Shown: piece by piece, positions 1 to 20,651 of the stretch | Layout: each line of letters starts with the position of its first letter | Position numbering within the stretch: position 1 is the stretch's first letter | Assembly (NCBI RefSeq): GCF_003634105.1 | Contig: NZ_RBIQ01000008.1 | Location: forward strand, 496,001-560,000 | DNA: 64,000 nt | Origin: Maribacter vaceletii | GTDB lineage: Bacteria; Bacteroidota; Bacteroidia; Flavobacteriales; Flavobacteriaceae | Reading direction: 5' to 3' | The notes under the pieces: model-generated | Databases searched by the model: none | What the model saw: the letters and a program-made list of their open reading frames with translations, nothing else | Told to the model about the DNA's origin: nothing | Translations under genes and position numbers: made by a program

Positions 1-2722
1 CTCCTTCTTTAACTACCCAAAAATCTCCTGCAAAGGCATAACCTCCACCACCAGTAACTTCACCACCAACAAAATCTGGCACCTCCGTTACTTCATTATC
101 TAAAGTTGAAAATGTTAGATCTGATTCCCATGAGAAATTATCATTAGTTATATTTTTACTACTTAAAGAAATATCAAAACCTTTGTTTCTTACATTTCCA
201 AAGTTTTCTCTAAAACTGCTAAATCCTGTAGAAGTTGGTACTGGTCTTTGAAAAAGTTGGTCCGATGTGTTTCTTACATAATACTCTATACTTCCTGATA
301 GCTTATAATCTAATAAAGCAAAATCTAGACCTAAGTTTATTTCTTTTGTAGTTTCCCAAAGAAGGTTATTATTTGGAATTCTACTAGGAATAGCTCCCGT
401 AAGAACTTGCCCTCCTAAAACTGCATTAGCCCCAGGAATAAATGTTGAAATAGTTTCAAAATTGTTAATAGCTTGGTTTCCTATTTCTCCATACCCAATT
501 CTTAATTTTAGATTATCAAACAGTTCTTGCTTTTCCATAAAAGGTTCGGAGCCAATTTGCCAACCTAAAGAGGCAGATGGAAATACTGCTGTCTTATTTT
601 TCTCTGAAAACTTACTGGTGCCATCTGCTCTAAAAGATGCTGTTAACAAGTACTTGTCTTTATAAGCATATGTAGCTCTTCCTAAATAGGAACGCAAAGT
701 AGGCTCAAACCTCTCTGTTTCTGTAGCGTATCTTTCTGGGTTAGCAGCTCCAAAGAAATCGGATCCATTAACATCAGACAAAAACCCTTCTGCAGTTGCT
801 TCTACTTCTCTATTGATAAATTTTTCATAGGTTACCCCTCCTAGTACTTTAAAATTATGATTACCTACTTCTTTTTCATAAGAAAGAAGGTACTCTGCAA
901 TACCATAAGAATTATCATTATTTCTTACCAACCCTAATCCTTTAGCACCAATACCAGCTTGGGTCCATCTATTCTCATAAGAATCAAATTTAGTACCGCT
1001 TATTCTACCACCAAGATTAAGGTTCATTTTAAACCCATCAAATATCTCATATTCAATTTTAGCATTACCTATAATTTCATTCCTCTCTCTATTTTGGTCA
1101 AAACCTTGCATTATTGCTTCTGGGTTTTCTACCTGAATAAAAGGGTTTAATTTATACCTTCCTTGGGCATCTAATTGCGCATCTAAAGTTGGATCAAATA
1201 ATAAAGCTGCAGCTACAGAACCAGATATGCTATTGGTTCCTAAAGGCATTAAATCTGTAAGTGTTCTATTGGCATTTAAATTAAAGTTAATTTTTAATTT
1301 ATCTGTAGGCGTTACATTTACATTTATTCGAGCGTTGTATCTATTTTCTCCTGTGTTTCTAAGCACCCCTTTTGCATCATAATAATTTAAAGACGCATAA
1401 TAGGTTGCTTTTTCGTTACCACCTGAAAGAGAAAGTTGGTGATTTTGCATTACACCACCTCTTAAAATTTGATCTTGCCAATTAAAGCCATTACCAATTG
1501 ATGCTATTTGCTCATCGGTATATAATGGAGTGTAAGCTGGGTCTGTAGCATTTGCTGGATCCGACTCAAAGTCTAATGCGTTTAGAGTTTCCATATATTG
1601 CTCCCCATTAAGCATATCTATCCGTTTTGCTGCGTTTTGAATACCAACATAGGTATTATAGGAAACTTTAAGGCCGCTTCTGCTACCCTGTTTTGTTGTA
1701 ATTAAAACTACCCCGTTAGCTGCTCTAGAACCATAAATTGCAGATGCAGATGCATCTTTTAGTATTTGAATAGATTCTATATCATCTGGGCTTAAAGCAT
1801 CTACATTACCGTTTGGCAACCCATCTACAACTACTAGAACACCGTTACCGCCATTTACTGAGTTTAGTCCACGAACTTTAATTTCTACCGCTCCGCCTGG
1901 TGCACTACTAGATTGACTAATTTGAACTCCTGAGGCTTTTCCTTGTAAAAGCTGAAAAGCATTAGTATTAGCTCCTTTTGCAAAGTCTTTAGCGGTAACC
2001 TGTACAACAGAACCCGTAACGTCTTTTACTCTTTGAGAACCATACCCTACAACTACAACTTCGTCTAATGCTGCTGCATCTTCTGCCATTGCAACCTTAA
2101 TTGTTGTTTGGTTTGCAACTACAACTTCTTGGGTAACATACCCAATATAAGAAATTACAAGGGTTGGTTTTTCTCTGGAAGGTGTTATAGAAAAGTTTCC
2201 ATCAAAATCGGCCTGTGTACCATTACTTGTTCCCTTTTCAAGAATATTTGCTCCAGGTAGTGGAATACCATCTGCATCTACAATTACTCCCGAAATACTG
2301 GCCTGAATATTGGAAGTAACATTTTCTACAGCATTTGTAGTAGCAATAGGTAAGTTATTTTTTTCTGTTAAATAAATACGTTTCCTTATAATATTATACT
2401 TTGTTTTTGTTGTACTAAACACTTGATTTAAAATAGTATTTATAGGTTCCTTATTGGCTGCTATAGATATGGTCCTATTTAAATCTATATCTGCTAATTT
2501 ATATACGAAACGAAATTTAGTGCTGCTTTCTACTTCATCTAAAAATTGACTTACAGATACATCATTTAAATTAAGTGTAACTTTTGTCTCTTGTGAGTAG
2601 GTGTCATTTGCTTGCAGTGCAATGAATGATACAAAAAATAATAGGAGACTAAGTTTCATTTTAAGATCAAATTTTAATAACGGATAAAACCGCCCTTTTG
2701 GTTTAGAAGGTTGTTTTTTCAT
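1..2722 (-). CDS. SusC/RagA-type TonB-dependent outer-membrane receptor with STN domain, 3' end missing
   Basis: Outer-membrane importer, probably for a glycan or other large ligand. The minus-strand frame is open from the ATG at 2720-2722 to the window edge (about 907 codons); the C-terminus is cut off, the last readable residues being GDFWVVKEG, typical of the late barrel of SusC proteins. Reading in: a signal peptide ending near NDTYSQ, an STN (secretin/TonB short N-terminal) domain starting TKVTLNLNDVS, a carboxypeptidase-D-like regulatory domain (VIVDADGIPLPGANI), the EVVVVGYG motif and a plug with ILKDASASAIYGSRAANG. The STN domain plus the upstream sigma and FecR genes indicate a trans-envelope signalling receptor that controls its own expression when ligand binds. 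A SusD partner would be expected beyond the left edge. The substrate cannot be told from this sequence. Confidence 0.93.
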   Translation of the reverse strand, partial: MKKQPSKPKGRFYPLLKFDLKMKLSLLLFFVSFIALQANDTYSQETKVTLNLNDVSVSQFLDEVESSTKFRFVYKLADIDLNRTISIAANKEPINTILNQVFSTTKTKYNIIRKRIYLTEKNNLPIATTNAVENVTSNIQASISGVIVDADGIPLPGANILEKGTSNGTQADFDGNFSITPSREKPTLVISYIGYVTQEVVVANQTTIKVAMAEDAAALDEVVVVGYGSQRVKDVTGSVVQVTAKDFAKGANTNAFQLLQGKASGVQISQSSSAPGGAVEIKVRGLNSVNGGNGVLVVVDGLPNGNVDALSPDDIESIQILKDASASAIYGSRAANGVVLITTKQGSRSGLKVSYNTYVGIQNAAKRIDMLNGEQYMETLNALDFESDPANATDPAYTPLYTDEQIASIGNGFNWQDQILRGGVMQNHQLSLSGGNEKATYYASLNYYDAKGVLRNTGENRYNARINVNVTPTDKLKINFNLNANRTLTDLMPLGTNSISGSVAAALLFDPTLDAQLDAQGRYKLNPFIQVENPEAIMQGFDQNRERNEIIGNAKIEYEIFDGFKMNLNLGGRISGTKFDSYENRWTQAGIGAKGLGLVRNNDNSYGIAEYLLSYEKEVGNHNFKVLGGVTYEKFINREVEATAEGFLSDVNGSDFFGAANPERYATETERFEPTLRSYLGRATYAYKDKYLLTASFRADGTSKFSEKNKTAVFPSASLGWQIGSEPFMEKQELFDNLKLRIGYGEIGNQAINNFETISTFIPGANAVLGGQVLTGAIPSRIPNNNLLWETTKEINLGLDFALLDYKLSGSIEYYVRNTSDQLFQRPVPTSTGFSSFRENFGNVRNKGFDISLSSKNITNDNFSWESDLTFSTLDNEVTEVPDFVGGEVTGGGGYAFAGDFWVVKEG

Positions 2723-2878
2723 ACTTTTGTAATGTTAAAAATTGTGGTTATTCTTTTTTGAGTTTAATCACATCATAACCGATCGGGAAATGTTGCACCA
2801 TTTTCCGATTTTTTATTATGATATGTTTTTGTGTTAGTTACGTTACTTTACATAGGCAGTTAATTTATTTTAAGTTAA

Positions 2879-4003
2879 TTAATTAAGTATTATAATATTC
2901 CCATCTATTTCATAATCTAAATGATAGGTTATTTTTAATTCATCTAAAACTTCTTTAATAGGCGGCTTACTTCCAAAGCTTGCATTAAATTTTTCATTAG
3001 ACAGGCTTTTATTTTTATTTATAATCTTAACATCATATTGCCTTTCCAATTTTTTAAGAATATTATCAAAAATCATATTTCTAAAAACAAGTTCCCCTTT
3101 CATCCAAGAAGTGTAAATATCTGTAATAACTGCATTGCTTTTTATATCTTTATTTTGCTTACTAAAACTTGCCTTGTAACCAGGAACTAAGCGTTTATCT
3201 ATTTCTCCTTCTTTAGTTTCATTAGTATAAAGACCAACAGAACCTTCTACCAAAACAACTTCGGTTACATTATCTTCTGGATACGCATTTACATTAAATA
3301 CGGTTCCAAAAACTTTAACATTAAGATTATCTGCATTTACTATAAAAGGATGTTTTTTATCTTCGCTAACATCTAAAAGTGCCTCTCCTGTTACATAGAC
3401 TAAGCGTTCTTTACCTTTTATAAATTTTACTGGGTATTTTAAAGAGGAACCCGCATTTAAATACACTTTTGTGCCATCAGACAACAACAACTCAAAAGTT
3501 CTGCCATAAGGAATAGTCAAGGTATTATATACTAATTTTTCTGTTTTAGTTTCTACATCAGAATATACTAGTTGGTTTTTATTTTGCCTGCCAACTACAC
3601 TCCCTGAAGCATTAAAAAGAGGCGTGTTATTTTCTTCGTCTAAAACTTTTATAGTGCCATCTTCTAATTCTAAAGTAATAACATCTTTAGGAGATAACTC
3701 TACACTATCACTTTTTTGAGTGGCATATTTACTACCAAAAAACAGTATACCTAATACTATTATTGCTACGGAGGCTACTTTCCATAATTTTGTGGTTGAT
3801 CTTGATGACCCATCTATATTTTTATTAATATCTGACCAAATAGTTTCTTTTAAATTATTTTTTGATTCTTCATCTTTAAAATTATTTTCATTTTTATGTA
3901 TCCTATATTCTTCTTCAAAATTTTCTAAAGCTATCTCTTCTTGCTCTGTTAATGAGCCATTTATAGACTTCTCTAAAAGCTTTCTAAATTCTTTTTCTTT
4001 CAT
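2879..4003 (-). CDS. FecR-type anti-sigma factor
   Basis: Single-pass inner-membrane anti-sigma factor of 374 aa. An acidic cytoplasmic N-terminus (about residues 1-65) is followed by one membrane helix (about 68-88, VASVAIIVLGILFFG), the FecR domain (TIPYGRTFELLLSDGTKVYL, then GEALLDVSEDKKHPFIV and FGTVFNVNAY) and a C-terminal domain ending LDYEIDGNIIILN, the DUF4974 arrangement of Bacteroidota. It lies 162 bp after the ECF sigma gene and 156 bp before the SusC gene on the same strand, the standard sigma-FecR-SusC order. By analogy with FecIRA it would hold or activate the sigma factor in response to the STN domain of the receptor. Confidence 0.95.
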   Translation of the reverse strand: MKEKEFRKLLEKSINGSLTEQEEIALENFEEEYRIHKNENNFKDEESKNNLKETIWSDINKNIDGSSRSTTKLWKVASVAIIVLGILFFGSKYATQKSDSVELSPKDVITLELEDGTIKVLDEENNTPLFNASGSVVGRQNKNQLVYSDVETKTEKLVYNTLTIPYGRTFELLLSDGTKVYLNAGSSLKYPVKFIKGKERLVYVTGEALLDVSEDKKHPFIVNADNLNVKVFGTVFNVNAYPEDNVTEVVLVEGSVGLYTNETKEGEIDKRLVPGYKASFSKQNKDIKSNAVITDIYTSWMKGELVFRNMIFDNILKKLERQYDVKIINKNKSLSNEKFNASFGSKPPIKEVLDELKITYHLDYEIDGNIIILN

Positions 4004-4165
4004 AATAATAAGTATACATTAGTAAGACTCTTTTAGGGGGTCTTTTTCCCACAAAAAAATTGTATTTAACATTTTTTTAACATTTAATAAATTTGTAAAA
4101 TAAATTAATATGTCATAAAAAATAACACATATAGTTGTTGAATTGAAAAATAATGTAGAGTGATT

Positions 4166-4732
4166 TTACGAAAAAATAAAAATCAAAAGGATAGTTATAT
4201 TACTTCTTATGGATTTTACAGCAACTGAAATTTGATTTTCAACAGATTTTTTAGAAATACCAAGTTCCATCGCAATTTCTTCATTAGAATAGTGTTTAAA
4301 TCTACTTAACTCAAAAATTTGCTTACAGCGTTTTGGTAAACTATTCATAGCTTGTTTAATAGTACTTAAAGTCTCTTCTAAATCGTGCTGCTTTTTAGAA
4401 GCCGACTCTGAAATTATATATGATTTTTCAATAAAATCTAAACGCACAGAAGAAAACTTCTTATCCCTGAGGTATTTGTAACAATTGTTTCTTACTGATG
4501 TATGAATATAAGCTTCAAAATTTCGTATTTCTATAGCCTCTCTTTTTTGCCATAATTTTATCCAAATTTCTTGAACAATATCTTTAGCTATAGTTTCATT
4601 TTCTACAATAGAAATAGCTTTAACATACATAACCTCCCAATACAGCTCATAAAGCTTACGAAAAGCTCTTTTATTGCTTTTTCTAAACTCTAGTACTAAT
4701 AAATTGCTAGATAGGTTGGTTTTTGTTGGCAT
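4166..4732 (-). CDS. ECF RNA polymerase sigma-70 factor (FecI-like, Bacteroidota family)
   Basis: 188-aa sigma factor with only regions 2 and 4. Region 2 is seen in FRKLYELYWEVMYVKAISIV and IAKDIVQEIWIKLWQKR, region 4 in LPKRCKQIFELSRF and YSNEEIAMELGISKKSVENQ. It is first in a minus-strand unit with fecR and the susC-like gene, so it most likely transcribes that receptor operon. The tail (ITILLIFIFS) is unusually hydrophobic for a cytoplasmic sigma factor. It is clearly different from the two ECF sigma genes near 48-49.7 kb. Confidence 0.95.
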   Translation of the reverse strand: MPTKTNLSSNLLVLEFRKSNKRAFRKLYELYWEVMYVKAISIVENETIAKDIVQEIWIKLWQKREAIEIRNFEAYIHTSVRNNCYKYLRDKKFSSVRLDFIEKSYIISESASKKQHDLEETLSTIKQAMNSLPKRCKQIFELSRFKHYSNEEIAMELGISKKSVENQISVAVKSIRSNITILLIFIFS

Positions 4733-12990: not shown

Positions 12991-15900
12991 ATGGAAAAAA
13001 CAGAACGTAATTATTTTACATTTTTTGCTCTCTTTATTTTAATAAGTATTAATAGTCTTTTTGCACAAGTAAGAATGACCGAAGAATCTTGGACGCTACC
13101 AACATATAAAGTTATGCCTTCTGAAAAAGCTCCTATGTTTTTTACAAATGGTAATTTCCAAGGCGCGCAGAGAGTTATTTATCCGTATGCTACTAATGAT
13201 GAAATTTCTGGGGAAAGAACTATGCAAGATTGGAAAGCTCTTATATTAGAAAATGAGTATATAAAATTAGGTATTACTCCTGAAATTGGTGGTAAATTAT
13301 ATTACGCTACAGATAAAACCAATGACTACAATTATATTTATAAAAATAATGAGGTAAAACCTGGTAATATAGGAATGACAGGTGCATGGGTTTCTGGAGG
13401 AATAGAATGGTGTGTTTTACACCATCACAGAGCATCTACTTTTCTACCTATGGATTATGATTTAGTTAAAAATAAAGATGGTAGTAAAACAATTTTTATA
13501 GGAGAAACAGAACCAAGACATAGAATGCGATGGAATGTAGGCATAACAGTATCTCCTGGCAAATCTTATTTTGAAGCAGAAGTGTCTATTTACAACCCTA
13601 CACCTTACACTCATAATTTTTTATATTGGGCAAATGTTGCTGCGCATACCAACAATACATACCAAACTATATTTCCGCCAAGTGTTGAATTTGTTACTTT
13701 TCATCAAAAAAATCAGTTTACAAGGTGGCCTATTTCTAATGATATTTATAGAGGACAAGATTTTACAAAAGGAGTAGATATAAGTAGGTGGAAAAATGTT
13801 AAAGAACATGCTTCGTTTTTTGCTCATGATTTAAAAGAGGATTTTATGGGAGGTTATGACCATGGAAAAAATAGTGGAACAGTACATATTGGCGACCATA
13901 ATATTGTAAAAGGTGCTAAACTTTGGGAATGGGGCTCAGGAAAAGTAGGACAAAATACAGAGGGAAAATTAACAGAAACTAGTGGCCCATATGTAGAAAT
14001 TATGGTTGGTGCATTTTCTGACAACCAACCAGACTATACTTGGATAAGACCATATGAAGTAAAAAAATGGAAACAATACTGGTATCCTGTTAAAGACATT
14101 GAAGGTTTTAAAAACGCAAATCTTAATGCTGCCGTTAATTTAGAGCAAAGAGAAAATAATACAATTTTCTTGGGGTATCATTCCACCCAAAAAGTAAAAA
14201 ATGCTAGAATTACTTTAAAAAATGGAAACCAAGTAGTATTAGAAAAAGACATACTAATTTCTCCTGAAAAAGCATTTACAGAAAAAATTAAAATAAATTC
14301 CGAATATAAATTTACAAACCTATATACGGAACTAAAAGATTTGGACACTGATTTTGTAATTATATCCTATAAACCAAAAGATCCTAAAAACACTAAAAAC
14401 CTACCTCCTGTTGTTACGCCTCCTGCTGCTCCAGAAGATATTACTAGTGTAGAAGAATTGTTTATTGTAGGTAATAGAATGGAACAATTTTATAAAACTG
14501 CAAACGGAGGAGAAACCCCCTATTATAAAGAAGCTCTTAAAAGAGACCCCAATCATACCAAAACAAATATCGCAATTGGAAATAAATTACTTAAAAATGG
14601 GGATTATACTACTGCAAGAACTTATTTTTCTAGAGCTATAAAAAGACAAACAAACAACTATACAAGACCGTCTAACGGAGAAGGATTGTATTTACAAGGT
14701 ATAACATTAAAAAAACTAGGATTATATGAAGAAGCTATTGATACGCTTTATAGAGCAACTTGGGATAATGCTTATTTTTCTGCAGCATTTTTTGAATTAG
14801 CTCAAATATCTTCTATAAATAAAAACTACAAAAAGGGTCTTAAAGAAATTAATGAAGCTATTTCTAGTAATACAAAAAACACTAGATTATATGGCTTAAA
14901 ATCTGCTATTCAAAGAAAATTAGGGAATTATAATAGTGCCTTAGAAACATTACAACAAGTGTCTAATATAGACCCACTTAATTTTAGAATACAAAATGAA
15001 CTTTATTTAACAGCCAAAGAAACCAACAAAGAACAAGAAGCTGCTATTTTACTTGCATCTCTAAACAAAAAAATGCGAAACTTTGATCAAAACTATATAG
15101 AATTAGCTGTAGAATATCTTAATGATGGTATGCTAAAAGAATCTGAAGATGTTTTAAAACGATACAAAGGAAAAAATCCTATTTCTATATACTACCTAGG
15201 GTATATACAGGATAAACTTAAAAATAAAGATGCTGCTAAAAAACTATTTAGTGAAGCACAATCTTTATCAGAAGAGGGTATTTTTCCTTATAGACTTGAA
15301 ACTATTGAAGTTTTAAAAAAGGCCATAAAATACAATCCTAATGACGGTAAAGCTTATTACTATTTAGGTAACATTTTATATGACAAACAACCCAAAAAAG
15401 CAATATTACATTGGGAAAACGCAGTGAAAAACGCTCCCAAACTAGCAATGGCACATAGAAATATAGGTTTTGGTTATTACCGCCATTACAAAGATTATCC
15501 TAAAGCTATACTTTCTTATGAAAAAGCAATTACATTAGATAATACAGATGCTGTTTTTTATAATGAATTGGATGTTCTTTATGAATTAAATAATAGTCCT
15601 TTAGAAAAGAGACTTGCAATTTTTGAAGGTAATAATAAATATGTGAAAAATAGAGATGATGCCTTTGTTAGGCAAATGCAAGTACTTACACTAGCAGGAC
15701 AAGCAGATAAGGTGGTAACTTATTTAAAAGATAAAACATTTAGCTATAGAGAGGGAACCTCTAGAGTTCGTGAAAATATTATAGATGCACAATTGTCTTT
15801 AGGAATTAAATTTTATAAAGCTAAAAACTACAAAAAAGCATTAGAACATTTTTTATTAGCACAAGTACCAGATGAGGCTGCTGGTAGAGCAAAGTTTGGA

Positions 15901-16332
15901 AATAGAGAAATACAGGTTAATTACTTTATAGGTTTAGCTTATGAAGCCCTAAGCAATACTATAGAGGCCAAAATATTTTATACGCTATCTACTAAGGTAG
16001 AGAGTGTAAAAAACAAAAAACAAAGAAGTGGTTTTATGAGTTATTATGAAGGGTTAAGCTTTTTAAAACTAGGAAACAAAGCTAAAGCAAATGAAATTTT
16101 TAACTCTCTTGTTACTAATGGAGACAAACAACTTAATTTTAATTCTGATGAGAATAGTTACTTTCAAATCTTTGGAGAAAAAGATAGTGAAAACACAAAA
16201 AAATCTTTAGCATATACAATGAGAGGTCTTGGATACAAAGGTCTAAACAAGAAAAAACAAGCAAAAGAAGATTTAAAGAAAGCCACTGAAATATCTGTAA
16301 GTAATTTGTGGGCAGGTCTTGAGTTAGAATAA
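12991..16332 (+). CDS. Exported DUF5107 and tetratricopeptide-repeat protein
   Basis: 1113 aa with a signal peptide (hydrophobic stretch ending NSLFAQ). Residues about 30-430 form the DUF5107 domain, a galactose-mutarotase-like beta-sandwich region rich in aromatic residues (GAWVSGGIEWCVLHHHRAST). Residues about 470-1113 are TPR repeats, for example ALKRDPNHTKTNIAIGNKLL and GKAYYYLGNILY. DUF5107 proteins are common in glycan-utilisation loci and probably bind or process carbohydrate, but no reaction is established that I know of. The gene is monocistronic and divergent from the membrane regulator at 11556-12836. Confidence 0.88.
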   Translation: MEKTERNYFTFFALFILISINSLFAQVRMTEESWTLPTYKVMPSEKAPMFFTNGNFQGAQRVIYPYATNDEISGERTMQDWKALILENEYIKLGITPEIGGKLYYATDKTNDYNYIYKNNEVKPGNIGMTGAWVSGGIEWCVLHHHRASTFLPMDYDLVKNKDGSKTIFIGETEPRHRMRWNVGITVSPGKSYFEAEVSIYNPTPYTHNFLYWANVAAHTNNTYQTIFPPSVEFVTFHQKNQFTRWPISNDIYRGQDFTKGVDISRWKNVKEHASFFAHDLKEDFMGGYDHGKNSGTVHIGDHNIVKGAKLWEWGSGKVGQNTEGKLTETSGPYVEIMVGAFSDNQPDYTWIRPYEVKKWKQYWYPVKDIEGFKNANLNAAVNLEQRENNTIFLGYHSTQKVKNARITLKNGNQVVLEKDILISPEKAFTEKIKINSEYKFTNLYTELKDLDTDFVIISYKPKDPKNTKNLPPVVTPPAAPEDITSVEELFIVGNRMEQFYKTANGGETPYYKEALKRDPNHTKTNIAIGNKLLKNGDYTTARTYFSRAIKRQTNNYTRPSNGEGLYLQGITLKKLGLYEEAIDTLYRATWDNAYFSAAFFELAQISSINKNYKKGLKEINEAISSNTKNTRLYGLKSAIQRKLGNYNSALETLQQVSNIDPLNFRIQNELYLTAKETNKEQEAAILLASLNKKMRNFDQNYIELAVEYLNDGMLKESEDVLKRYKGKNPISIYYLGYIQDKLKNKDAAKKLFSEAQSLSEEGIFPYRLETIEVLKKAIKYNPNDGKAYYYLGNILYDKQPKKAILHWENAVKNAPKLAMAHRNIGFGYYRHYKDYPKAILSYEKAITLDNTDAVFYNELDVLYELNNSPLEKRLAIFEGNNKYVKNRDDAFVRQMQVLTLAGQADKVVTYLKDKTFSYREGTSRVRENIIDAQLSLGIKFYKAKNYKKALEHFLLAQVPDEAAGRAKFGNREIQVNYFIGLAYEALSNTIEAKIFYTLSTKVESVKNKKQRSGFMSYYEGLSFLKLGNKAKANEIFNSLVTNGDKQLNFNSDENSYFQIFGEKDSENTKKSLAYTMRGLGYKGLNKKKQAKEDLKKATEISVSNLWAGLELE

Positions 16333-16481: not shown

Positions 16482-16940
16482 TTGATACAAGATTATATCA
16501 TAGCATTCTTATGGAGTATCTCCCCTTTTGGAGAAGCTAAAGTTGGTATTCCCTATGGTTTATTAAATGGGTTAGACAAATATTTAGTATTTGTAATTTG
16601 TTTTGCTGCTAATGTGTTTGTTTTTCCTTTAATGTTTTTCTTTCTAGAAAAAATAAATAAATATTTATTACGCATGCATTTCTACAAAAAATCTGCTTTA
16701 TATGTTGCCCGTAAAGCAAAAGTGGGTTCTGGAGATAAAATAAAAAAATACGGCTTCTGGGGATTAATATTCTTTGTAATGCTACCTATACCTGGCACAG
16801 GAGTTTATGCAGGAAGTATAGCAAGCTATTTATTTAAGATGGAAAAGAAAAGAGCATTTGTTGCTAATACAATTGGTATTTTTATTTCTTCAGTAATTGT
16901 TTGGGCTACAACAATACTTACAATGAAAGGTGTTAATTAA
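16482..16940 (+). CDS. Small multi-drug export family membrane protein (COG2426)
   Basis: About 152 aa and strongly hydrophobic with four or five membrane segments. The family signature SPFGEAKVGIPYG near the N-terminus and LPIPGTGVYAG in the middle identify the COG2426 family, whose transport role is predicted rather than shown. There is no ATG in the first part of the frame. I chose TTG 16482 because the upstream TTG at 16452 lies inside a -7 promoter match; the earlier start remains possible. The stop overlaps the convergent regulator gene by 4 bp. Confidence 0.82.
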   Translation: MIQDYIIAFLWSISPFGEAKVGIPYGLLNGLDKYLVFVICFAANVFVFPLMFFFLEKINKYLLRMHFYKKSALYVARKAKVGSGDKIKKYGFWGLIFFVMLPIPGTGVYAGSIASYLFKMEKKRAFVANTIGIFISSVIVWATTILTMKGVN

Positions 16941-18073
16941 AAAGGCACAACGCATATAGTTTCCTTTTTCATATTTGTTCTATCTTTTCCAAATACCTTA
17001 TAAACAGCAGTAAAATTATCTTTATTTTTTAAATATTTACTAGTAAATACTGCCAAAGAATCTTTATTAGAAAAAAACTCTACCGTAGCTAACACCCCTA
17101 TATCATGATTAGAAAAAAATAAAAATTGCTCTTTAGCATTAAGACTCTTTGATCTAGAAACTATTGCATATTCCATATCAGGAGGTGTGTTTGTTAAATG
17201 TATTACACTATCTTTTTTATTAGGAATATTTACCATTTGTAAAGTAGTATCAGAAATTTTAAAATGTCTATTTTCATTATTAAATAAAGTTGTGAATTTT
17301 TGTCTTCTATGAAAAGGACCAACGTAAATTATATTCCCCTCTTTTAAATCATCATAAGTAGTTTTAGATGCAAAACGTATAGTAAAAGATTTAGTATACT
17401 TAGAAAACACTCTAGATATATTATTTGCTGCATAGGCTCCCATTCCTGTAATATAGGAATAAGGTGAAGGCTTTAATAAGTCTTTATACTTTTTATTTAT
17501 CTCAATAAAATCATAATATTCTGTTGCATTATTAATTTTAAAATCTCTGGTTACTCCTACCCCACCAGTAATCGTTCTGCCATAAAGGCTATAGGCATCT
17601 CCAATAAACATGGTAGTTTTAAAATCGTTTTTAAAATAATCTCTCCAAACTTTAGGAGCATTAAGGAGACTATTATTTACAAAAAAACTTAATAAGACTA
17701 ATAGTAAACCCAAGTATGGTAATACTTGCCAAAAACTAATGCTTTTTGTATTCTTTTTTAGACTAGAAACTTTTACGTACCGTATTCCATACTGTCCTTT
17801 ATCAATAATTAATCTCCATGTGTCCTCTTTCCCTTGAGAAGCATAATAAACTTCTAGCTTTTTTCTTAAATTATAGACATTAACTCGTACTCTAGCATTC
17901 GTTTTATCTGCCTCTAAATTACCTCCAAAAAATTCTATATCTATTATATTTTCTTTTAGGTAACTCCCTTCTAAATCTGCTTGCACTAAATATCTTAATA
18001 AAGCAGAACTCTTAGGTGCTTTTAAGAAAATTTTACTTTGTAATATTTTAGAACTTATCTCTTTTTTATCCAT
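16937..18073 (-). CDS. Membrane-anchored winged-helix regulator
   Basis: 378 aa. Residues about 20-105 resemble an OmpR-type winged-helix domain (ARVRVNVYNLRKKLEVYYAS, then WRLIIDKGQYGIRYVKV). One membrane helix follows (about 117-133, WQVLPYLGLLLVLLSFF). The rest, about 240 aa, would be extracytoplasmic and has no family I recognise. This layout, DNA-binding domain inside and sensor outside, resembles CadC/ToxR-type one-component regulators. It is transcribed divergently from the GH105-propeller lipoprotein gene, and a direct repeat (ACCGTTA twice) lies in the shared promoter region. It probably controls that gene; this is inference. Confidence 0.75.
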   Translation of the reverse strand: MDKKEISSKILQSKIFLKAPKSSALLRYLVQADLEGSYLKENIIDIEFFGGNLEADKTNARVRVNVYNLRKKLEVYYASQGKEDTWRLIIDKGQYGIRYVKVSSLKKNTKSISFWQVLPYLGLLLVLLSFFVNNSLLNAPKVWRDYFKNDFKTTMFIGDAYSLYGRTITGGVGVTRDFKINNATEYYDFIEINKKYKDLLKPSPYSYITGMGAYAANNISRVFSKYTKSFTIRFASKTTYDDLKEGNIIYVGPFHRRQKFTTLFNNENRHFKISDTTLQMVNIPNKKDSVIHLTNTPPDMEYAIVSRSKSLNAKEQFLFFSNHDIGVLATVEFFSNKDSLAVFTSKYLKNKDNFTAVYKVFGKDRTNMKKETICVVPF

Positions 18074-18230: not shown

Positions 18231-20651
18231 ATGACTAACTCGTTACTAAAATACTTATCAGTTATTATTATTCTAATCCATTTTAGTAGCTGTAAAACTT
18301 CCTCAAAAATTCCTTCTTCAACCAGTATAAAAGCTATAAATAATAAAGTAGCAGATTGGCAAATAAATACTTTTGAAGATATGGGAAAATATAGAGCCCT
18401 ACCCCCTATAGAAAAAAGAAAAAATTGGCATACACGCATTAAACATCATGAATTAGATTGGACAAATGCTGCCTTGTATTCTGGTATGTTCCAATGGGGA
18501 GAAATTGCTGGGGATAATTCTTATTTAGAATGGCTAAACAGTATTGCAGAAAAAAATGATTGGCAGTTATTAAAAAGAAAATATCATGCAGATGATCATG
18601 CCGTAGGACAATTATATTTAAAACTTAAAACAGTTTATGGTAACAGTCATGGCAAACGTAAAACACATTTAGAACAACGTTTTGATTCTATTTTAATTGA
18701 CAAAAAAAAGGATAAACTACACTGGGATTGGTGCGATGCTTTATTTATGGCTCCTCCTGTTTGGGCAAAATTGGCTAAACAAAAAAATGATGCTACATAT
18801 TTAAATTACATGCATAGTCAATATAAAAAAACCTACGATTTATTATGGGATAAAGAAGAGGCTTTATTTTATAGAGATGCTAATTATTTTGATAAAAGAG
18901 AAAAGAATGCTAAAAAAATATTCTGGTCTAGGGGAAATGGTTGGGTATTTGGCGGTTTAGCGCTTATGATACCAGATTTTCCTAAAGATTGGGAACATAC
19001 CAATTTTTATATAAACACCTTTAAAGAAATGGCAAATACCCTAAAAAGAACCCAGCGCAAAGATGGCACTTGGTCTTCTGGTATTCTTGGCGACTTAAAA
19101 ACATATGAAAATATAGAAACAAGCGGTACTTCATTCTTTGTATTTGGCTTAGCTTGGGGCATAAATCAAAATATACTAGATAAAGCTACTTATGAACCTG
19201 TATTACTAAAAGGGTGGAATGCATTGGTTAATGCTGTAAACCAAGAAGGCATGCTTACTTATGTACAAGGCATAGGTGCGCAACCAGGAGTTAGTTATAA
19301 AGATTACTCTGAAGTTTATGGTACAGGTGCTTTTTTAGCTGCTGGTTCAGAAATGTATAAATATGCAAAAAAGAACGAATTATACTTAAGTAAAAACGCT
19401 ATAACAAATACTAGTGTATTTACATTTATGAAAGACGGTGGTTGGTGCTGGTACCAAGACCCTAGAGCAATAATTAAAAACAATAAAGTGGTATTAGGTG
19501 GTCTTAGCGGGCAAACAGGAGATGTAAAAGTTTCTGTATTCGATTTAAAAAATAAAGAAAACGAAGGAGAATATATTTTACACAAAAATTTTCAGAAAGA
19601 CGACCATAATGTTCCTGCTTTTTTTACAAGAAAAGATGGAAGTATTCTTGCTTTTTGGGCTAAACATGGTTCTGAAAAAAAACATTATTACAGCACTACA
19701 TCTTCTAACAATTATTTAGACTGGAATACTACTAAAGAATTTAATCATGAATATGAAGAAACATTTGGGGTAACCTACATGAACTTGCATTACATGGAAA
19801 ATGAAAACCTACTCTATAATTTCTTTAGAGATGGCCCTACATACAACCCTAGTTTTATTACTTCTAAAGACAATGGAGAAACTTGGGGGAATCGTAGTCA
19901 TTTTATAGCTGATGATGTAGAAGGAAGACAAAGGCCCTATGCTAAATACTTGCAGAAAGATGCTAATACTGTAGGCGTTTCTTTTACAGATGGGCACCCA
20001 AGAAATTACGGTAATAGTCTTTATTATGCCGAATTTAAAAACAATGCTTTTTATAAGGCTGATGGAACTTTAATAAAAAAATATACTAGTACTCCACTAT
20101 TTACATCAGAGGCAGAAAAAATATTTATTGGAAGTGAAACTAAAGAAAAACCTGAATATTGTGAGAGTGTTCCTAATTCTGCTTGGACCTGCACTAGCGC
20201 TAAGGATAAAAACAACAACCCATATATTGGTTACACCTTATATATAAATAATAACGACCATAGGTACAGAGTTGCACATTGGAACGGAAAAAAATGGATA
20301 GACAAAGAAATTGCATATGCAGGAACTTGTTTATACAGTATAGAAAGTAGTTATACTGGTCTAATGGATTTTGACCCTGAAGACCCATCTATGGTATACA
20401 TATCTACAGACGTAAACCCTAATACTGGAAAAGCTACTGGAGGCACGCATGAAATTTATAGTGCTAAAATTAATTCTAATGACACAATAGAAACAATTGC
20501 ATGGAAACCAATAACACAAAATTCTGAGTACAGAAATATTAGACCCATTATAGTAGCCAATGAAGGAAAAAAAGTATTATTATGGCTTAATGGTGTTTGG
20601 AACTCCTTTATAAATTATAATGTGGATGTAAAAGGGATTATTCTTGAATAG
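18231..20651 (+). CDS. Lipoprotein fusing a GH105 unsaturated glucuronyl hydrolase to a BNR_4-type beta-propeller
   Basis: 806 aa. The N-terminus has a lipobox (IHFSSC), so it is a surface or periplasmic lipoprotein. Residues about 40-385 are GH105, the (alpha/alpha)6-barrel family that removes the unsaturated uronic acid left by lyases: WDWCDALFMAPPVWAK contains the probable catalytic Asp169, followed by FWSRGNGWVFGGL and DGTWSSGILGD. Residues about 395-806 match BNR_4-type propellers (WCWYQDPRAIIKNNKVVLGG). In this part His459 (DDHN), His479 (AKHG), Tyr521 and Arg533 (FFRDG) resemble the catalytic His/His/Tyr/Arg set I recall for PL24/PL25 ulvan lyases. A protein that both cuts a polysaccharide and trims the product is plausible; lyase activity is inference. 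It is divergent from a membrane-bound regulator. Confidence 0.87.
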   Translation: MTNSLLKYLSVIIILIHFSSCKTSSKIPSSTSIKAINNKVADWQINTFEDMGKYRALPPIEKRKNWHTRIKHHELDWTNAALYSGMFQWGEIAGDNSYLEWLNSIAEKNDWQLLKRKYHADDHAVGQLYLKLKTVYGNSHGKRKTHLEQRFDSILIDKKKDKLHWDWCDALFMAPPVWAKLAKQKNDATYLNYMHSQYKKTYDLLWDKEEALFYRDANYFDKREKNAKKIFWSRGNGWVFGGLALMIPDFPKDWEHTNFYINTFKEMANTLKRTQRKDGTWSSGILGDLKTYENIETSGTSFFVFGLAWGINQNILDKATYEPVLLKGWNALVNAVNQEGMLTYVQGIGAQPGVSYKDYSEVYGTGAFLAAGSEMYKYAKKNELYLSKNAITNTSVFTFMKDGGWCWYQDPRAIIKNNKVVLGGLSGQTGDVKVSVFDLKNKENEGEYILHKNFQKDDHNVPAFFTRKDGSILAFWAKHGSEKKHYYSTTSSNNYLDWNTTKEFNHEYEETFGVTYMNLHYMENENLLYNFFRDGPTYNPSFITSKDNGETWGNRSHFIADDVEGRQRPYAKYLQKDANTVGVSFTDGHPRNYGNSLYYAEFKNNAFYKADGTLIKKYTSTPLFTSEAEKIFIGSETKEKPEYCESVPNSAWTCTSAKDKNNNPYIGYTLYINNNDHRYRVAHWNGKKWIDKEIAYAGTCLYSIESSYTGLMDFDPEDPSMVYISTDVNPNTGKATGGTHEIYSAKINSNDTIETIAWKPITQNSEYRNIRPIIVANEGKKVLLWLNGVWNSFINYNVDVKGIILE

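Follow-up and report, generated by a model that had tools for sequence, protein, structure and literature searches.

The window, a 64,000-nucleotide stretch of the Maribacter vaceletii genome, carries a single open reading frame in which a GH105 domain is followed by a BNR_4-type propeller. Its coordinates are those given in an earlier note on this DNA. The features of the locus are as follows.

18231..20651, plus strand: GH105 and BNR_4 propeller fusion, 806 aa; reading frame and coordinates confirmed
18231..18293, plus strand: lipoprotein-type signal, residues 1–21, with lipobox Cys21 and no acidic export signal after it; signal class assigned from sequence
18345..19364, plus strand: GH88/GH105 domain, residues 39–378 (Pfam PF07470, E 3.7e-72)
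19386..19409, plus strand: interdomain linker of low confidence in the AF2 model (pLDDT <50 at residues 391–393)
19410..20648, plus strand: seven-bladed, lyase-like propeller, residues 394–806, from the BNR_4 match and fold matches
16937..18073, minus strand: 378-aa protein without a Pfam match, putatively a membrane regulator
1..4732, minus strand: SusC gene (cut by the window edge) with FecR-like and sigma-factor-like genes, the latter two named from sequence

The BNR_4 match (PF15892, residues 429–695) reaches E 2.6e-22 and 79.9 bits, against a curated cut-off of 27.3. A whole-genome search found the fusion to be the sole BNR_4 protein of M. vaceletii and one of three GH88-family places in a genome with about 50 sulfatase and about 20 SusD matches. 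The AF2 model of the full protein, computed from an alignment of 56 relatives, has a mean pLDDT of 88.9, with the propeller at about 95.

Divergent from the fusion, and 157 bp from it, lies the 378-aa gene, whose product recurs near the fusion or an unfused pair (L061 and L062) in 13 loci. Its model combines a helical N-terminus, a helix at 114–134 and a C-terminal alpha/beta domain; no solved fold matched this model significantly (best E 0.02), so we treat its role as a membrane-bound regulator as putative. Elsewhere in the genome, a 47% paralog of this protein stands beside a polysaccharide utilization locus (PUL; C4:172132-188406, L153) encoding the uronate isomerase UxaC, two members each of GH2 and GH43, one sulfatase, a GH29-like protein and a GH16, the flank of which matches genes neighbouring the fusion in Seonamhaeicola and Algibacter. 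The window also encodes a large secreted protein with DUF5107 and TPR at 12991–16332.

The lack of an adjacent SusC/D pair or other PUL gene had been described as unusual. None is indeed adjacent, but a SusC-led operon (window 1–4732) lies 13–18 kb to the left as part of a SusC/D and two-sulfatase PUL; one of these two sulfatases matches, at 71%, a sulfatase encoded at the fusion locus of Lutibacter oricola. Further, about 10 of the 23 fusion loci found in this study have no PUL-type gene within 10 kb, and the solitary arrangement in the window is therefore common. PUL-like surroundings occur in the Lutibacter, Flavicella, Flavivirga and Saccharicrinis-type loci, in clusters that carry GH2, sulfatases, a DUF1080-type hydrolase, and GH29 or GH95. 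In another Maribacter, the fusion and the regulator sit beside a tgt-like gene (L042:4420-13527); the equivalent site in M. vaceletii (C3:22136-51949; L157 and L158) holds a lambda-carrageenase/SusCD/sulfatase PUL instead. Within this genus, the fusion has moved between chromosomal sites.

Recurrence of the fusion and of the unfused pair

The full GH105–propeller fusion is present in 23 loci of named genomes (L035–L056 and L067). In five further loci, a stand-alone propeller gene has a same-strand GH105 gene as its neighbour: Flavivirga rizhaonensis (L057), Algibacter lectus (L061), Marinoscillum (L062), Catenovulum (L065) and Pontiella (L068). Coupling of GH105 to this propeller, which is thus repeated across many marine bacteria, is therefore well supported, in line with the earlier proposal that one protein couples cutting and trimming. 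Full-length fusions are 59–91% identical in the 20 loci compared, which represent several families in at least two phyla, and by this sequence comparison the conservation of the fusion exceeds chance. In a tree built by a quick method, 20 of 21 fused rows fall together in a single supported group, and most of the adjacent-gene versions branch close by but outside it; on this tree, the labels fused, adjacent and other require 4 changes versus 21 when shuffled. The propeller clade as a whole spans Bacteroidota, Kiritimatiellota, Verrucomicrobiota and Planctomycetota, plus one Catenovulum. Close propellers also occur without a GH105 in the DNA stretch examined (L058, L063 and L064), and GH105 is rarely found near propellers of less than about 45% identity.

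Several related arrangements were seen. Directly upstream of the propeller gene in Pontiella, a sialate-type acetylesterase domain is fused to GH105 (L068:7875-9872); in a member of the Pontiellaceae, this propeller is instead joined to a GH2 enzyme, and a GH105 fragment lies immediately upstream (L066:525-4832); and in a member of the Flavobacteriaceae, a PL42-like BNR_4 gene adjoins a GH105-like gene, the same pairing with another propeller family (L143:1-2571). No GH105–BNR_4 fusion was found in searches of open-access papers. In Vibrio sp. 10N, 'BNR4 and GH88' denotes separate genes, and this case was rejected.

Predicted catalytic positions and fold of the two halves

The GH105 half has the (alpha/alpha)6 fold, a family-level sequence match and the catalytic aspartate of the family, with D169 paired with D143 of YteR. 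Its closest solved sequence is 4ce7, an ulvan unsaturated 3S-rhamnoglycuronyl hydrolase (E 8.9e-73, 37–40% identity), and its structural neighbours (VIA) are nearly level, with Z of 45.0 for 5noa, 44.2 for 4ce7 and 43.9 for 4q88. D121, D122, W165, W167, D169, R234 and N236 show no variation across 21 fusions. This half thus looks intact, and we predict it to be active, in agreement with the earlier reading of Asp169. The positions compared in both halves are listed here.

18735..18737, plus strand: D169, paired by alignment with YteR D143 (catalytic) and the same in 21 of 21 fusions
19605..19607, plus strand: H459, aligned with PL25 H123 and PL42 H85
19665..19667, plus strand: H479, aligned with PL25 H143 and PL42 H105
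19776..19778, plus strand: Y516, aligned with PL25 Y188 and PL42 Y150
19827..19829, plus strand: R533, aligned with PL25 R204 and PL42 R166
19938..19940, plus strand: Y570, aligned with PL25 Y246
19995..19997, plus strand: H589, aligned with PL25 H264, the sole zinc-ligand position kept

Seven residues of the propeller (H459, H479, Y516, N518, R533, Y570 and H589) are invariant in 56 of 56 propellers, at identities down to about 30% and including relatives without a GH105 partner. Alignment with hhalign places the PL25 catalytic set H123/Y188/R204 at H459/Y516/R533 and finds the PL42 set H85/H105/Y150/R166 present as well; the catalytic roles of these PL25 and PL42 positions are described elsewhere (PMC13193363, PMC8377490). 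The earlier note had correctly picked out H459, H479 and R533, all of which align with catalytic positions of PL25 and PL42, and had chosen Y521 as the tyrosine. Its idea of a catalytic set is correct apart from the tyrosine, which should be Y516, in the motif GVTYMNL, because this residue is invariant and aligned with the catalytic tyrosine of both families, whereas position 521 is Tyr in 19 of 56 relatives and varies even among close orthologs. On the strength of the profile alignment and the fold match, H459, H479, Y516 and R533 would cluster in the propeller groove.

The seven-bladed propeller predicted for residues 394–806 is close to PL25 (5uas, Z 32.4), with no PL24 among the best 50 VIA neighbours listed. 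The top solved folds belong to the former GH145, now PL42 (5mum, Z 33.7; 5mvh, Z 33.0), with PL42 FoRham1 7esk at Z 30.6; PLL-type lectins come next after the lyases, at Z of about 26, 4–8 units lower (all VIA). PL24, compared by fold alone, gives Foldseek E values of 3e-12 to 2e-10, weaker than PL25 and PL42. By its modelled fold, the propeller groups with the lyases among BNR_4 folds.

Sequence relations are more distant. Direct phmmer and profile searches of PDB sequences with the propeller returned no PL24, PL25 or PL42 chain, nor, in the test for membership of PL42/GH145, any direct match to members of that family; what matched did so by chance, such as antibodies and sialidase Asp-boxes. 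By contrast, a true PL25 of the same genus (L145) matches 5uam at E 1.5e-158, and the PL42-like Flavobacteriaceae protein (L143) matches 5muk at E 1.2e-34. Profile–profile alignment with hhalign relates the propeller clade to a PL25 profile, made from PL25 proteins found within the genus and its family (L145, L147, L149 and L151), with a probability of 95.4 and E 1.9e-8, the better of the two profiles tested, and to a profile of PL42-type proteins including L143 with a probability of 90.0 and E 1.7e-6. Three of the four PL25 zinc ligands are missing: H208 is replaced by T537, C266 by R591, and the loop with H278 is absent. Given these losses and the lack of a direct match to PL24, PL25 or PL42, the propeller represents a separate clade and, by its sequence, is not a member of PL25, two tested features (direct match and zinc site) being absent. 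Of the earlier description of an ulvan-lyase-like propeller, the lyase-like part stands, through fold search, profile–profile alignment and GH105 pairing; membership of PL24 or PL25 is not supported, with PL42 equally near to PL25 in fold.

Proposed activity, location and substrate

From the domain composition, the fold, the conserved and aligned residues and the recurrence of fused or adjacent genes, all established by computation, we infer a mode of catalysis, exo action, a periplasmic site and a class of substrate. It is quite likely that the fusion works as a PL25 or PL42 lyase does together with GH105, as a bifunctional beta-eliminase and unsaturated uronyl hydrolase. In the propeller, R533, with Y570, would hold the uronic acid and neutralise its carboxylate, and H459, aided by H479 and Y516, would take the C5 proton as the sugar on O4 departs, leaving a 4,5-unsaturated uronic acid terminus. 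Through D169, the GH105 half would then hydrate the double bond and free the unsaturated residue, the likeliest overall outcome being that chain ends or oligosaccharides lose a capping sugar together with its uronic acid.

The earlier note had described a lipoprotein at the cell surface. A lipobox-like motif ending at C21 agrees with the lipoprotein, but this cysteine is not followed by an acidic export signal, and of 23 orthologs just one shows a candidate. In Bacteroidota lipoproteins, absence of this signal favours the periplasmic face, which leaves the surface position unsupported. The fusion protein is probably lipid-anchored on the periplasmic side, as judged from its signal. For the propeller, an exo mode is preferred by analogy, because PL42-type exo-lyases pass their unsaturated product to GH105 and because of this likely periplasmic site: in a gut Bacteroides, the PL42-type lyase BpGH145 (BACPLE00338) yields an unsaturated product that BpGH105 (BACPLE00337) takes as its substrate (PMC8406133).

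The target is probably a sulfated, uronic-acid-containing algal glycan trimmed at its chain ends. Since genes neighbouring the fusion in PULs encode GH2, GH29, GH95 and sulfatases, ulvan is no more likely a substrate than a sulfated glycan that contains galactose, fucose and a uronic acid. An endo-acting PL24/PL25-type ulvan lyase fused to its own GH105 and working on ulvan at the cell surface appears unlikely to us. It would account for the nearness of the GH105 half to the ulvan enzyme 4ce7 and for the PL25 profile matching better than the PL42 profile; set against it are these fucose- and galactose-type PUL neighbours, the missing zinc ligands and export signal, and the failure of the propeller to find PL25 directly where the same-genus PL25 does so. 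PL25 itself has no match in the M. vaceletii genome, nor in 10 of the 15 further genomes tested that carry the fusion or the pair; among those 15, three have weak matches and only Catenovulum and Pontiella strong ones. It is also absent from one of two same-genus genomes tested. In the same-genus genome G152, a PL25 ulvan-lyase-like gene lies in a cluster rich in sulfatase-like and large secreted proteins (L145–L146). In Lutibacter, a sulfatase gene lies immediately downstream of the fusion. As a link to a PUL, and so as a guide to the substrate, it was rejected, because its 71% ortholog in M. vaceletii sits in a lambda-carrageenase PUL and the substrate of lambda-carrageenase contains no uronic acid.

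Two other roles for the propeller can be weighed against elimination of a sugar. It is quite improbable that the propeller is non-catalytic or altered, such as a binding module keeping substrate in place for GH105: PLL-family lectins are among the similarly shaped propellers and no activity is known for this clade, but the lyases score clearly above those lectins, and the catalytic set persists in all 56 sequences, relatives lacking a GH105 partner included. Highly improbable, in our judgement, is a dehydratase that eliminates water rather than sugar, making unsaturated from saturated uronic acid ends for GH105. The chemistry would be the same beta-elimination, and P29_PDnc (PL37) feeds P33_GH105 in this way in the Formosa ulvan pathway; P29_PDnc, however, relies on Asp, Arg and Lys, its tyrosine being dispensable (PMC8511951), and no propeller enzyme with such activity was found in the literature searched.

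Returning to the bifunctional eliminase and hydrolase, we propose tentatively, as a possibility rather than an expectation, that the propeller clade constitutes an unassigned polysaccharide lyase (or uronyl dehydratase) family and that the fusion is a self-contained chain-end trimmer acting on a sulfated algal glycan other than ulvan. If so, it would put a name to an enzyme that can be tested for removing the chain ends of sulfated glycans from the sea, add an unassigned propeller clade to the lyase map, and place in one protein the hand-off from lyase to GH105 that is known from separate genes. It would also caution that not every BNR_4 protein is an ulvan lyase.

Comparison with known systems

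PL42 enzymes (former GH145; FoRham1, BT3686 and BACPLE00338) are L-rhamnose-alpha-1,4-D-glucuronate lyases that resemble the propeller in their seven blades (Z 30–34) and aligned His/His/Tyr/Arg set, and that act with a separate GH105 (PMC8406133); they differ in giving no direct sequence match, and those in the literature searched are not fused to GH105. PL25 (PLSV_3936, 5uam) shares the fold and the positions of the catalytic His, Tyr and Arg, the second His, Tyr246 and His264, but has zinc ligands (H208, C266 and H278) that are lost here and again no direct sequence match; characterised PL25s are single-domain (PMC13193363). PL24 (LOR_107 and Uly1), with the set His146/His167/Arg259, is also a seven-bladed propeller, more weakly matched by Foldseek. 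Nu_GH105 (4ce7) and YteR (1nc5) share the GH105 domain and its catalytic Asp; these are separate proteins, whereas in the fusion this domain forms the N-terminal part of a chain that continues into a propeller. Finally, P36 of Formosa agariphila, an S1_25–GH78 protein, similarly joins two consecutive steps of uronic-acid glycan degradation in one chain (PMC8511951), although these steps are those of a sulfatase and a rhamnosidase rather than of a lyase and a GH105.
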